A stretch of 64,000 nucleotides of DNA from an uncultured Clostridia bacterium (GTDB lineage Bacteria; Bacillota; Clostridia; Christensenellales; Borkfalkiaceae). The notes beneath the pieces are model-generated. The model made no database searches. It was not told where the DNA came from and was given only the letters and a program-made list of their open reading frames with translations. How positions within the stretch are numbered: position 1 is the stretch's first letter; every line of letters starts with the position of its first letter. This document shows, piece by piece, positions 5,413 to 30,357 of the stretch. The translations under genes were made by a program, and so were the position numbers. Where the stretch lies: the NCBI GenBank assembly GCA_944354035.1, contig CALVPS010000004.1, forward strand, positions 1 through 64,000. The letters run 5' to 3'.

Positions 5413-5426
5413 TCCGGTTGCAGTTT

Positions 5427-5453
5427 GCGGGGCGGTACGGCGTACCGCCCCGC
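5427..5453 (+). terminator. Terminator of the araBDA operon
   Basis: Perfect 12-bp arms GCGGGGCGGTAC / GTACCGCCCCGC with a GGC loop and a short ACTTTGT tail, 14 nt after araA. The T-tract is weak, so it may also act as a 3' stabiliser. Confidence 0.6.
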
Positions 5454-5528
5454 ACTTTGTATCGCCGGGCGCGGCGTTTTGCGGTCCCATAAGGGAGGAA
5501 TGCGGATCCGATCAATCGCGGGATATAA

Positions 5529-5758
5529 GGCGCTCATGTTTGGTTGAAACCCTTGTCCGTACCGCATGGCATGCGCTGCGGTCTTTGCCTTGACTGATCG
5601 TCTGTCTTGCCGTATTTGTGGGCGTCGCATTCGCTGCGGCAAAACGCCTTTTGCCGGCATTCGCCGGAGCGGAACGCCGCGTTTCCGTTTGTCGCGCCTT
5701 ACCGCAAAAATTTACGTTGTTCAATTTTGCGAGAGCCGCGGCAGGAGTTTGGCGCCTT
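5529..5758. repeat. Dispersed intergenic repeat, copy 1
   Basis: This gene-free stretch between araA and the GH36 gene shares segments with 27592-27889. Segment A (5529-5549) matches 27869-27889 in reverse complement at 19 of 21 bases. Segment B runs from 5636 to 5758: its start (5636-5663) matches 27592-27619 at 23 of 28 bases and forms a hairpin (GGCAAAA/TTTTGCC), and its end (5722-5758) matches 27681-27717 at 31 of 37 bases. One stem pair changes A-T to G-C between copies, which suggests a selected RNA or DNA structure. No gene is evident in 5454-5817. Confidence 0.6.
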
Positions 5759-5817
5759 ACCGCCAAGGGGCGGAAAAGGATCGTTTGCATAAAATCAAGA
5801 TAGAGCAGGAGTTGCAA

Positions 5818-7887
5818 ATGTTTTTTAAAAAGTACTGTTTTGGCGATACGGCGATCTACTACATCGAGTCGCCGATCGAGGGGCACGACGGCAAGACGAC
5901 GATAGGGCTTGCCGCCTATCCCAAGGATTGGGCCCTGAAGGAGGACGCAAATTTGTGCTGCGACAGCCTTGTGCAGGTCGCATTCACCGGGGATGAAGGG
6001 CTCATCGACTACACGCAGGGCGTGACGATGCGCAACCGCGAGGGGACCGTACTGAAGGTGGAGTCGCAGGCGGCCGACGAGCGGGGCGTTATTACGCTGC
6101 TTTCGGACGGGCGCGGCAACCTGTATACGCACATTTTGGAGTATTCCTCCGCCACGGGCGTATTCAGCGTACATATTGTGTACGAAAATGCGTCCTCGGA
6201 AGAGCGTATGCTCGAGATGCTCGAAAGTCTTTCGCTCAGCGGGATCGTGGCACCGTCGTTCGGATCGAACGCTACGGTAGGGCTTCGGCTGCACCGCATG
6301 ACGAGCGCCTGGTCGCGCGAATGCCGCTTAAAGACGGACGAGTTTGCACACCTCGGCCTGGATATGAGCTGGGCGCGCTACGGCGTAAAAGTGGAAAAGT
6401 GGGGGCAGGCGGGCAGTATGCCCAACCGCGGTTACTACCCGTTTGCGGCGATCGAGGAGGCGGATGCCGATATCACCTGGGGCGTTACGATGCAGGCGCC
6501 CTATTCGTGGCAGATGGAGGTGTATCAGGAAAAGGAGAGCTGCGCGCTCTCCTGCGGGCCGGGCGACTACGAGTTTGCGCATTGGCGCAAGCGGATCCCG
6601 GCGGGCGGGACGTTCTGCACGCCCAAGGCGTACTTTACCGTAAAGGCGGGCGGGTTGAACGCCGTATGCAACGCCCTGGTCCACGAGCAGGACGCGCGCC
6701 TTGTCCTTCCGGAGAGCGAGGCGGATATGCCCGTGCTGTTCAACGAGTACTGCACAACGTGGGGCTGCCCCTCCGAAGAGAATATCCGCGCCATCCTCAA
6801 GGCGATCGAGCCTTTGCGGCTCGGTTACTTCGTCATTGACTGCGGGTGGTATAAGCCGGACGATAAGGGCTGGTGCAACGCCATCGGCGATTGGCGTGAG
6901 AGCAAGAGCCTCTTTCCGAACGGCATTTCCGCCGTCAGCAAGGCCATTCGCGCGGCGGGCATGCTTCCCGGTATCTGGTTCGAGTTCGAAAACGCCGGGC
7001 GGGATTCGCAGATCTTCTCTCGCGAGGAGTGGATGCTGAAGCGGGACGGCAAAATCATCACCAGCAAAAACCGCCGCTTTTTCGATCTGACGCAGCCGGA
7101 GGTAAAAGCGTACCTTACCGAACGCATGCTGCGCTTTTTAAAGGAAAATGATTTCCATTACATTAAGATCGATTACAACGATACGTACGGCGTCGGCTGC
7201 GACGGCGCCGAAAGCGTGGGCGAGGGCGGCCGACGCATTGCCGAAGAAAGCCTTTCCTGGCTGAATGCGATCAAAGAGGCGGTCCCGGATATGGTCATCG
7301 AAAATTGTTCCTCCGGCGGCAGCCGCATCGAGCCCATGCGCATGGGGATGGTTTCGATGTGTTCCTTTTCGGACGCGCACGAGTGCGCGGAGATCCCGCT
7401 GGTCGCGGCAAACGTCTCGCGCGTGGTGCCCGCGCGGCAAATGCAGATATGGGCGGTGCTGCGCAGGGACGATACGCCCTCGCGCACGATCTATTCGTTG
7501 TGTGCCGCCATGCTGGGGCGCATCTGCCTTTCGGGCGATGTGGCGGACATGCCCGCGGAAAAGATCGCGCTCCTGCAGCAGGGGCTTGCGTTCTATCGCA
7601 GGATAAAGTCCGTTGTGGCAGACGGAGACATTGCAGAGATCGACTGCAACGTGGAATATTACCGCGAGCCGGTGGGCAGGCAGATCTACATCAAGGATCT
7701 GGCGGGGCGGCGGCTGGTGATCGTGCATCGCCTGATCGCAGAGGCGCCCGTGGCGCTTCCGTTGGAAGGCTACCGTCTGGTCGACGCGTTTACCGATATG
7801 GACTATCGCTTTGAAGACGAAACGCTGCGGATCTTTGAGCAGGCAGATTACCGCGCCGGGGCATTTTTATTTGAAAAGACGGAATAA
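5818..7887 (+). CDS. GH36-type alpha-galactosidase
   Basis: 689 residues from the ATG at 5818, chosen because it has an SD (AGCAGGAG) and begins the beta-sandwich-like N-terminal domain; the frame stays open upstream but only through the intergenic repeat. Clan GH-D signatures: IDCGWY near residue 340, the nucleophile Asp of KIDYN (about 452), ENCSSGG, and the acid/base Asp of FSDAHE (about 519). It should cleave terminal alpha-galactosides (raffinose family, galactomannan side chains). No signal peptide, so the substrate must be imported first. Monocistronic between a repeat and a strong downstream promoter. Confidence 0.88.
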   Translation: MFFKKYCFGDTAIYYIESPIEGHDGKTTIGLAAYPKDWALKEDANLCCDSLVQVAFTGDEGLIDYTQGVTMRNREGTVLKVESQAADERGVITLLSDGRGNLYTHILEYSSATGVFSVHIVYENASSEERMLEMLESLSLSGIVAPSFGSNATVGLRLHRMTSAWSRECRLKTDEFAHLGLDMSWARYGVKVEKWGQAGSMPNRGYYPFAAIEEADADITWGVTMQAPYSWQMEVYQEKESCALSCGPGDYEFAHWRKRIPAGGTFCTPKAYFTVKAGGLNAVCNALVHEQDARLVLPESEADMPVLFNEYCTTWGCPSEENIRAILKAIEPLRLGYFVIDCGWYKPDDKGWCNAIGDWRESKSLFPNGISAVSKAIRAAGMLPGIWFEFENAGRDSQIFSREEWMLKRDGKIITSKNRRFFDLTQPEVKAYLTERMLRFLKENDFHYIKIDYNDTYGVGCDGAESVGEGGRRIAEESLSWLNAIKEAVPDMVIENCSSGGSRIEPMRMGMVSMCSFSDAHECAEIPLVAANVSRVVPARQMQIWAVLRRDDTPSRTIYSLCAAMLGRICLSGDVADMPAEKIALLQQGLAFYRRIKSVVADGDIAEIDCNVEYYREPVGRQIYIKDLAGRRLVIVHRLIAEAPVALPLEGYRLVDAFTDMDYRFEDETLRIFEQADYRAGAFLFEKTE

Positions 7888-27527: not shown

Positions 27528-27591
27528 GGAGCGAAATTCACCCGTTCCCCGTTATTCTGTAAGGGGAAAATGCGGACCGCATCTTTTCGCT

Positions 27592-27889
27592 GCGGCAAGA
27601 CGTGTCTTGCGGGCATTCGGCAGCGCCGAACGCTGCGTCCTTTCCGTCGGCTGAGCCGCTTTGCAGCCTTTTCCGTCATAAAATTTTGTGAGAGCCGTGG
27701 TAGGATTTAGGCGCCTTGCCGTTCATCGTTCTTGCAATAGATAGGATATGGCTGCGATTTTTTTCGCCGGATCCAAAATCTTGCCGCAAACGGTGCAACG
27801 CGATCGGATGCGGCAAAAATGGCGTTTCCGGGTACGGCGAATGGCGCAGCGTGGACCACGGGCAAAAATTTCAACCAAGCATGTGCGCC
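27592..27889. repeat. Dispersed intergenic repeat, copy 2
   Basis: Segment B (27592-27717) runs in the same direction as copy 1, with its hairpin GCAAGAC/GTCTTGC at 27595-27610. Segment A (27869-27889) lies downstream in inverted orientation, whereas in copy 1 it lies upstream. The two segments therefore move or evolve separately. The rest of 27376-28230 shows no gene I would support. Confidence 0.6.
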
Positions 27890-28230
27890 ACTGCTCCGTT
27901 TATGATCGGTCTGCGTCGCTCCCTTACAGGATTTCGGTAAAATGCGTATTCGTATGGTCACTGCATAAAATGTTCCGCGTTTTCCAACTTTTCGCCGCAG
28001 AACTTTTCGGCCGTTATGTCCGCGGCGGTTCCGCCTGCCGTTTTTAAAGAGTGCCGCCTTTGCGTTTGCGGCGGTCGGAATATCAAGATTGTGCTAATTG
28101 TTGGCAAGCGACGTTCTTTTCGTGCGGGCGCATGGGCGGTTATAATATGGTAAGTAAGGCGCGGAAGGCGCCGTCCGGGGCGGATGGAATCCCCTCGCGG
28201 GATAGGGTGAATGTCACCAAGGAGGCTTTT

Positions 28231-28863
28231 ATGGATCGGTTCGAAGAGATGTCCCAACTGCTGCAAAAGGGTAAGGCGCGCGACCTTTCCGCACTCGTAC
28301 AGTCGGAACTCGACGGCGGAACGTCGGCAAACGATATTCTGCTCAAGGCATTGATCCCCGGCATGAGCGCCGTCGGCGAACGCTTTAAAAAGAACGAGAT
28401 CTTTGTGCCGGAAGTGCTGATCACGGCGCGCGCCATGAATGCGGCACTTAAAATTTTGCGTCCCGCGCTGGCGCAGGCGGGCGTGGAGCCCGTCGGCACG
28501 GCCGTCATCTGCACGGTAAAGGGCGATTTGCACGATATCGGAAAAAATCTTGTAAAAATGATGATAGAGGGCACGGGGATCCGTGTGATCGATCTGGGCG
28601 TCGATTGCCCGCCCGAGCGCGTGGTAGAGGCGGTAAAGGAGTATCGTCCCGCCATCGTATGTCTTTCGGCGCTGTTGACGACGACGATGGGCAACCAGAA
28701 GGCGGTGATCGACGCGTTAAAAGAGGCGGGTTTGCGCGACAGCGTAAAGGTGATGGTGGGCGGCGCGCCCGTTACGAAGGCGTTTGCCGAGGAGATCGGC
28801 GCGGATGCCTATACGCCGGACGCGGCCACGGCGGCCGAGGTGGCGCGCGCCTATTTCAACTGA
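28231..28863 (+). CDS. Corrinoid methyl-carrier protein (MtaC/MtbC type)
   Basis: 210 residues from the ATG at 28231 (SD AAGGAGG). Helical cap domain first (residues 1-85), then the cobalamin-binding Rossmann domain with KGDLHDIGKNLV, whose His (about 101) is the lower cobalt ligand, followed by CLSALLTTTMGNQK and MVGGAPVT. It carries a methyl group between a substrate methyltransferase and an acceptor methyltransferase. No such methyltransferase is adjacent; the URO-D proteins at 45.3 and 47.9 kb are candidates. Followed by the reactivase and DUF2284 genes. A TATAAT at 28141-28146 may be its -10 box. Confidence 0.92.
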   Translation: MDRFEEMSQLLQKGKARDLSALVQSELDGGTSANDILLKALIPGMSAVGERFKKNEIFVPEVLITARAMNAALKILRPALAQAGVEPVGTAVICTVKGDLHDIGKNLVKMMIEGTGIRVIDLGVDCPPERVVEAVKEYRPAIVCLSALLTTTMGNQKAVIDALKEAGLRDSVKVMVGGAPVTKAFAEEIGADAYTPDAATAAEVARAYFN

Positions 28864-28887: not shown

Positions 28888-30357
28888 ATGCGGATCACGG
28901 TGATCGCAGAAGACAGAACGGTGACGTTCGAAGCAGAAAAAGGCGTAAGTTTTTTACGTCTTTTTTCCGCGCACGATATTCGTCTTCCCGCCCGCTGCGG
29001 CGGGAACGGCACATGCGGAAAGTGCGGCATCCAAATTGTTTCGGGTGCGGTTTCCGGCGCGCAGCCGGATGCCGACGGCCGCGTGCTTGCCTGCCGCGCT
29101 CGTCCCGAAGGCGACTGCGTCGTGCGCGTGCGCGAAGAGCGCGGCGGCGGTCTTGCGGGCTTTGCCTTTTCGCGCCGGCCTGCGCCCGCGCTCCGCGGGT
29201 GGGGGGTGGCGCTCGACGTTGGAACGACGACGCTTGCGGCGTGTCTTGTGCGCCCGGGCGACGCAAAGATCGTGGCGCGCGCCTCCTGCCTGAATCCGCA
29301 GGCCGTGTTCGGGAGCGATGTCATCAGCCGCATCCGCGCCTGCGCGCAGCCCGAAAATTTACAAAAACAACATCGGTTGGTCGTGGAACGCACGGCGGAA
29401 TTGGTGCGCGGCCTGGCTGTGCAGGCGGGACTGACGCGCGTTTCGCGCATGGTCGTGGCGGGGAATGCCACCATGCTACACCTCTTTTGCGGGGAAGATC
29501 CCTCGTCCATCGGCGTGGCGCCCTTCCGCGCAAACTTTTTGGAGGAGCGCGAGTATTCCGGCGTGCGGCAGGGCCTTCCCGCCGACCGCGTGCTGCTCAT
29601 GCCGTCCATCTCGTCCTATGTCGGCGCGGATATCACGGCGGACATCGTGGCGGCGGACATGTTCCGCAGCGACGAGCGCGTGCTTTTGGTCGATCTGGGG
29701 ACAAACGGCGAAATGGCGCTGCGCGCCCCCGATGGATTGGTGTGTACGTCCACCGCGGCGGGGCCCGCGCTGGAGGGTGCGTGCATCGAGTGCGGCATGG
29801 GGGGCGTAGAGGGCGCCGTGGACCACGTGCGCGACGAAGAGGGAGCGCTGCGGTTCACCACCGTGGGCGGCGCGCCGCCCACGGGGCTGTGCGGCAGCGG
29901 ATTGGTCGACTTTGTCGCCTGTCTTCTGCGGCGCGGCGAGATCGACGAAACGGGAGCCATGCGCCGCGACCGCGTGTATCTGACCGACCGCGTATATCTG
30001 TCGCAGGCCGACGTGCGGCAGTTCCAGCTTGCCAAAAGCGCCGTAAGCGCCGGTATGAAGGCGCTGCTGCGCCGTGCGGGCGTACGGGAAGAGGAGGTCT
30101 CCCGTCTGCTGATCGCGGGCGGGCTGGGATTTTATATCGATGTACGCCGCGCGGCCGAGACGGGTCTTATCCTTCCCGCGCTCGCCGGCCGCGCGCAGGC
30201 GATGGGGAACGGCAGCCTGTACGGCGCGTACCTCGTTTTGGCGGACGAGACCTGCCGTGCCGAAGCAAGGCGGGCGGCGAGCGCGGGACGTACCATCGAT
30301 CTTTCGACGGACGCCGTTTTTTCGGAAGACTTTATCGAGGGAATGTTTTTTGCATGA
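28888..30357 (+). CDS. ATP-dependent corrinoid reactivase (RACE/RamA-like ferredoxin-ASKHA protein)
   Basis: 489 residues. The N-terminal plant-type 2Fe-2S domain shows C37, C43, C46 and C69 (ARCGGNGTCGKC...LAC). The rest is an ASKHA-fold ATPase: VALDVGTTTLAACLV, VVAGNATMLHLF, LLVDLGTNGEMAL, GLCGSGLVD and LIAGGLGFYIDV. It restores oxidised Co(II) corrinoid to active Co(I) using ATP and low-potential electrons, which could come from ferredoxin poised by the Rnf complex encoded at 50-56 kb. SD TAGGAG; 24 nt after the corrinoid protein. Confidence 0.9.
   Translation: MRITVIAEDRTVTFEAEKGVSFLRLFSAHDIRLPARCGGNGTCGKCGIQIVSGAVSGAQPDADGRVLACRARPEGDCVVRVREERGGGLAGFAFSRRPAPALRGWGVALDVGTTTLAACLVRPGDAKIVARASCLNPQAVFGSDVISRIRACAQPENLQKQHRLVVERTAELVRGLAVQAGLTRVSRMVVAGNATMLHLFCGEDPSSIGVAPFRANFLEEREYSGVRQGLPADRVLLMPSISSYVGADITADIVAADMFRSDERVLLVDLGTNGEMALRAPDGLVCTSTAAGPALEGACIECGMGGVEGAVDHVRDEEGALRFTTVGGAPPTGLCGSGLVDFVACLLRRGEIDETGAMRRDRVYLTDRVYLSQADVRQFQLAKSAVSAGMKALLRRAGVREEEVSRLLIAGGLGFYIDVRRAAETGLILPALAGRAQAMGNGSLYGAYLVLADETCRAEARRAASAGRTIDLSTDAVFSEDFIEGMFFA

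Follow-up and report, generated by a model that had tools for sequence, protein, structure and literature searches.

Two intergenic segments of the 64,000-nucleotide stretch analyzed here (the window) carry copies of the same element. Copy 1 is flanked by araA and a melibiase-type gene, and copy 2 by an unassigned 726-aa open reading frame and the gene for a corrinoid B12-binding protein. The latter gene (28051-28860) is followed by one for a RACo-type reductive activator with a 2Fe-2S domain (28888-30354, Pfam match). A perfect 14-bp inverted repeat, a terminator-like hairpin kept in congeners, is located 3' of araA at 5426-5454.

When positions 5413-5820 were compared with the window by blastn, 5630-5762 aligned with 27586-27721 in the same orientation (72% over 136 columns, E 5e-19), confirming the element that the initial annotation had described as shared by two gene-free regions. 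A second, inverted match of ~160 bp connects 5485-5642 with 27931-27781 (62%, E 5e-7), and the 21-bp segment noted earlier in opposite relative orientations proved to be its best part. The true element boundaries fall outside the coordinates first assigned to the copies. Across the 51 contigs of the genome (G000, 1.5 Mb), no match but the query's own outranked that to the other window copy (E 3.5e-14), and a third place, on contig 11, came next.

Copy 2 is flanked by an imperfect 31-bp inverted repeat with arms at 27549-27579 and 27907-27937; a profile match runs across its right half, and some RNA-fold signal is left in it (z -2.95). Copy 1 extends over 5487-5762 and consists of one kept end and an inverted module. 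Model R1, which had this copy in its training set, matches its A-arm at E 1e-18. No B-end was recognized past the B-side module of copy 1, which is truncated, and its RNA-fold signal is gone (z -0.3). Both window copies are old and decayed and in themselves ordinary in kind, and an intact promoter junction of the type described below is no longer present at either of them. Their parts are listed in Table 1.

Table 1 Features of the two element copies in the window.
Feature	Position	Strand	Basis
Copy 1 locus: stretch from araA terminator hairpin to next gene, nearly missing from six or more congeners (empty locus)	5461..5817	.	Congener comparison
Copy 1 A-arm, A-end at 5487, CATAAGGGAGGAATGCGGATCCGATC from 5488 on the + strand	5487..5627	-	Alignment; inverted blastn match to copy 2
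B-side module of copy 1, opposite in orientation to the A-arm of that copy	5630..5762	+	blastn; intact order in L158
Copy 1 hairpin GCAAAACGCCTTTTGC, stem of the initial annotation	5639..5654	+	Sequence; homologous hairpins in other copies
Complete copy 2 (CTG to CAG; 373 bp; long subtype, decayed; B-end on the left and A-end on the right)	27557..27929	+	Both ends match family end motif
Copy 2 left terminal inverted repeat (B-end) CTGTAAGGGGAAAATGCGGACC	27557..27579	+	
Copy 2 B-side module, common to copy 1 and long-subtype copies C11, C39, L158, L136, L137, L160, L226	27586..27721	+	
Copy 2 hairpin GCAAGACGTGTCTTGC, compensatory stem of the initial annotation	27595..27610	+	Sequence; homologous hairpins in other copies
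Copy 2 A-arm	27796..27929	+	Alignment; model R1 E 5e-13 (copy itself in training set)
Copy 2 right terminal inverted repeat (A-end) CTGTAAGGGAGCGACGCAGACCG, read on minus strand	27907..27929	-	

The family to which the two copies belong is characterized by terminal repeats of ~22 bp in opposite orientation with the end consensus CTGTAAGGGnnnnATACGAACC. Allowing up to two mismatches, the core end motif TGTAAGGGNNNNATNCGNACC occurs at 19 places in the own genome, compared to 0 for a reversed control pattern, and many of these places form facing pairs 160-370 bp apart. The two ends can be told apart, as the A-end continues with ..CCCGATCAAAAGC and the B-end with ..CACGCCTTTGGCGG. Altogether, 55 distinct complete elements were obtained with lengths of 69-630 bp, mostly 273-281 bp, and the longer and shorter size classes differ by entire hairpin modules. 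Across 31 aligned copies there is no open reading frame common to all; a zinc-ribbon-like reading of one strand, seen in single copies, was considered as a hidden coding sequence and rejected, since no frame stays open across the 31. Searches of plasmids, phages and viral contigs gave no match to the element.

A different, related-looking modular repeat, CGGCGGAGCGC..TTCGGC..GCCGAA..CGCTCGCCGCTCCTCTTCGCAAAAAATC, was seen at L178:2112-2233, L178:5989-6107, L181:5310-5428 and L235:488-609; it has a module in common with the long subtype and may constitute a second repeat family. Elements also occur end to end (L160:5087-5868 and the flanks of L142, L218, L228 and L235), with CTTACAGTATACTGTAAG common to both, as if the TATA at the end of a resident copy had been the next target. 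At G083:C34:7706-7760 (L156), near a contig end, facing ends lie just 57 bp apart, representing either a minimal element or an assembly artefact.

Further copies of the repeat, first noticed as a pair, turned up in both DNA and profile searches. With a well-kept 281-bp copy as query, matches were found in 8 of 61 genomes, the own genome included; the congener G018 accounted for 19 match rows, and the single match outside the genus was short and weak. Scanning 85,000 species genomes for CTGTAAGGGNNNNATACGAACC yielded 107 stretches. Among the 80 of these that were listed, all species-named ones belong to Candidatus Gallimonas or Candidatus Coproplasma, the others being Clostridia/Firmicutes MAGs. 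In a sample of 248 genomes from across the order, the window's own genome gave the only exact hit. At one mismatch, the number of ends per genome was 42 in G018, 33 in G083, 12 in G017, 6 each in G015 and G001, and 4 in G011, with all controls at 0. Many ends in G083 lie ~100 bp from contig ends, as expected of repeats that break assemblies. In G018, a bacterial large SRP RNA (L168:5411-5675) lies ~1.6 kb from an intact element. The family is found in some chicken-gut Clostridia; within Candidatus Gallimonas and Coproplasma, a minority of the species carry it.

Evidence for insertion comes from relatives with filled and empty sites. One copy in G083 (L173) interrupts a coding sequence, and the homologous genes in G064, G035, G027 and G000 are uninterrupted. 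When the G083 flanks were joined with one TA kept, a 2-base gap was left in the alignment to all four homologues, and the net gain therefore equals the length from CTG to CAG plus 4 bp. This gain fits a 2-bp AT duplication around ACTG..CAGT and, because the bases are palindromic, fits equally well the absence of duplication with longer ends, TACTG..CAGTA. A 2-bp TA duplication of the IS630 type predicts a 2-bp excess relative to the four homologues; AT, or TA with other element bounds, fits. With the element bounds as drawn, duplication of TA only was rejected, as the rebuilt sites would be 2 bp too long compared to the four homologous genes and the spacing between the -35 and -10 boxes would come to 19. 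A 4-bp TATA duplication was likewise rejected, the left and right tetramers being unlike in many elements. At the locus of copy 1, the gap between araA and the next gene is ~7-15 bp past the conserved terminator in G018, G064, G080, G017, G013 and G027, compared to ~357 bp in the window. A canonical copy in G083 occupies the same araA-side intergenic region at a different point, just upstream of the terminator hairpin, and thus represents an independent insertion.

On the genome sequences, the comparison of filled and empty sites demonstrates that the element is mobile. The non-autonomous mobile repeat that was among the readings first offered is supported by the inverted ends, the many dispersed, near-identical copies, the patchy distribution and the relatives with empty sites. 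Short non-coding dispersed copies, terminal inverted repeats and empty sites are also the generic marks of a MITE. The window segments are very probably degenerate copies of a MITE family, i.e., non-coding elements with terminal inverted repeats that are moved by a transposase encoded elsewhere, and this reading takes in the promoter-splitting explanation developed below. The element ends presumably bind this transposase.

In the predicted fold of intact copies, two long arms join a terminal stem, resulting in a three-armed structure. Fold z-scores were -8.4 and -9.4 for the two strands of a Gallimonas copy, and -10.3 for a member of the diverged Coproplasma-type subfamily. Conservation of pairing was assessed in an alignment of 31 diverged copies on an RNAalifold structure of 68 pairs, with shuffled and slid alignments as controls. 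Of all cells, 97.0% were paired, and 25 of the 68 pairs had changed on both sides. Double-change cells numbered 172, whereas shuffles gave 50 and slid controls no more than 36, although these counts are inflated by the relatedness of the copies. The arm sequences vary by subfamily yet stay complementary (TTTGGCG/CGCCAAA, TTTTGCG/CGCAAAA, TTTAAAT/ATTTAAA). The hairpin in which a paired change from A-T to G-C had been reported is indeed present in both window copies and corresponds to one of the modules found in the long subtype. In most of the further copies its pairs covary. Among the forms seen are GCAAGACGCGTCTTGC, the wobble form GCAAGACGCGTTTTGC and GCAAAACGTATTTTGC, and the pairing is broken in part in two degenerate copies of the own genome (contigs C11 and C39). 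The change had been taken as structure-preserving, and across the 31 copies variation does respect base pairing.

The proposal of an ncRNA gene, in turn, found no support: the curated covariance models of Rfam gave no match to the element, and both strands fold equally well, so that the pairing constraint may act at the level of DNA, through transposition or upkeep of the arms by template switching, as well as at the level of RNA. It is quite plausible, if a little short of probable, that we are dealing with a selfish structured element whose arm complementarity is upheld by DNA events such as template switching, arm inversion and gene conversion, and not by selection on the fold. The like folding of the strands points in this direction, as do the inverted B-side module of copy 1, which recombination between arm repeats would produce, and the gain or loss of modules between size classes; 25 pairs changed on both sides, spread over all arms and subfamilies, are however many for sporadic events. 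Upkeep of this kind does not conflict with the main explanation as a MITE.

Clean element ends are flanked by TA, with a T four bases out in 87-88%, giving TATA outside CTG..CAG; the ends had been chosen for having TA, yet nearly all ends listed have it. Upstream of the TATACT that flank and element form at B-ends, a TTG-type -35 hexamer is present at a distance of 16-18 bases in 20 out of 78, compared to ~2 at control offsets, and at A-ends such a hexamer was found at the right distance in 8 of 86. We rebuilt the empty sites and scored them against the sigma-70 consensus. Read from B to A, 23 of 55 sites scored at least 9 of 12, with 4.7 expected and a maximum of 11 in 300 draws of control sites with a matching central tetramer, taken from these loci. 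Read from A to B, the number was 7 compared to 5.3 expected, i.e., background, and discordant sites favored the B-to-A over the opposite orientation by 21 to 5 (p 0.0025); flanks were counted as distinct by sequence alone in these comparisons, and some insertions may share descent. The far right flank contributes the conserved T at position -7 in 12 of 15 sites with a -35 box on the left, compared to 7 of 38 without one (p 5e-5). Because the far flank supplies this T where a -35 box exists, the promoter usually predated the insertion.

An example is found on contig 7 of G018, where a putative promoter TTGCCT-17-TATAAT now reads TTGCCT-17-TATACT, followed by the element, the remainder of the old box, a ribosome-binding site and a start codon. 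Gene starts lie outward of A-ends and B-ends equally often, and the orientation bias is thus visible only relative to promoters. Statistically, these counts demonstrate that insertions hit the A-T core of predicted sigma-70-like -10 boxes (TAT^AAT), with the B-end toward the -35 box.

A MITE that targets TATA and has no real promoter preference, many TATA sites being -10 boxes in a genome of 58% G+C, is possible, and we lean against it. TATA is the central tetramer in 39 of the 55 rebuilt sites and some insertions lie in genes, but TATA-matched sites from the same loci yield 4.7 promoter matches where 23 were observed, and only one of the two orientations shows an excess. Selection against insertions within genes could make up part of the excess over controls, as it raises the share of promoters generally, though it does not produce a one-sided orientation. 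Simple targeting of TATA, together with a bias in survival, is also possible.

Several elements are placed as leaders, with the promoter on one side and the ribosome-binding site on the other. It is nonetheless very unlikely that the family is a structured regulatory RNA or leader (riboswitch-like or an attenuator) common to several genes and mobile in looks only, for despite this placement, the strong conserved fold and the many double changes, its terminal inverted repeats are tied to a constant TATA target, copies within coding sequences (L173) have already weakened the idea, relatives have empty sites, the strands fold equally well, no Rfam family corresponds to it, and the promoter-read strand has no internal terminator signal above shuffles.

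Taking the elements as MITEs that split promoters, a transposase supplied from elsewhere would move the short non-coding element into a -10 box. Since the element's end would supply ACT and rebuild the split box as TATACT, the promoter is expected to keep working, with transcription starting just inside the B-end. The element would then probably become the structured 5' leader of the transcript of the downstream gene. Promoter insertions of this one orientation could be retained as they do little harm, or the transposase could prefer promoter DNA; likewise, the orientation bias may arise from survival, as the opposite orientation may block expression, or from the enzyme. Against this explanation stands the background level of antisense promoter insertions, a level not expected from an unbiased insertion mechanism alone. 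In its strongest form, the idea is that of a transposition system that picks sigma-70 promoters, cuts the -10 box in a fixed orientation, rebuilds it and spreads one structured leader across many genes of a genome, perhaps by using DNA opened by RNA polymerase. We put this forward tentatively and consider it rather unlikely as a whole.

Neither a parent transposase nor a full-length transposon with these ends was found. DDE_3 transposases (PF13358, IS630-type) were detected in 0 of 9 genomes, and PF01609 transposases were absent from the genomes searched. No paired ends 1-6 kb apart forming one element were present in the loci read or in six genomes, keeping in mind that draft assemblies break at repeats.

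Among known systems, the nearest functional likeness is the Correia element (CREE/NEMIS) of Neisseria, which is also short and non-coding, has inverted ends and TA-type sites, often lies 5' of genes and gives transcripts that form long stem-loops. The 'Snyder promoter' of Correia elements combines a -35 box in native DNA with a -10 box that the element contributes through its initial six bases (PMC2649163). This arrangement of native -35 and element-end -10 is also seen in our elements, as judged from sequence, and constitutes a likeness in working and not membership. The CREE end is given as TATAG[CT]GGATTAA... (PMC2649163), compared to [TA]CTGTAAGGG... in our family, and the CREE end pattern is not found here. 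Correia elements further measure ~70-157 bp, whereas ours are mostly ~275 bp with two internal arms and come from another phylum. In our family, unlike CREE, the -10 box usually predates the insertion and the orientation is biased.

Of the elements with a proposed IS630 partner, RUP of Streptococcus pneumoniae comes closest. According to the account drawn on here, it is a MITE with a TA-type target, intergenic and without coding capacity, thought to be mobilized by IS630-Spn1 (PMC2229807). It differs in its length of 107 bp, in forming a single family and in having a resident IS630 partner, which the lack of DDE_3 in our nine genomes does not parallel. ERIC/IRU and other structured bacterial repeats are described in the same account as transcribed, intergenic palindromic repeats with TA at their termini (PMC2229807); ERIC/IRU differs in length (127 bp), sequence and host range, and the account as used here mentions no splitting of -10 boxes. 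One-orientation insertion into existing -10 boxes is not described in the portions of these two sources used here (PMC2649163, PMC2229807).

The open-access literature searched held no description of this MITE family, which does not prove that there is none. The family appears to be undescribed, and its one-sided pattern of promoter-splitting insertion merits specialist attention. With this family, a class of unannotated repeats at which gut Clostridia assemblies seem to break is explained. That insertions at the -10 box favor one orientation constitutes a sharp, testable prediction. If the promoter-splitting explanation is true, a mobile repeat would multiply in a compact genome by landing in promoters without destroying them, and the same structured leader would thereby be placed before many unrelated genes.
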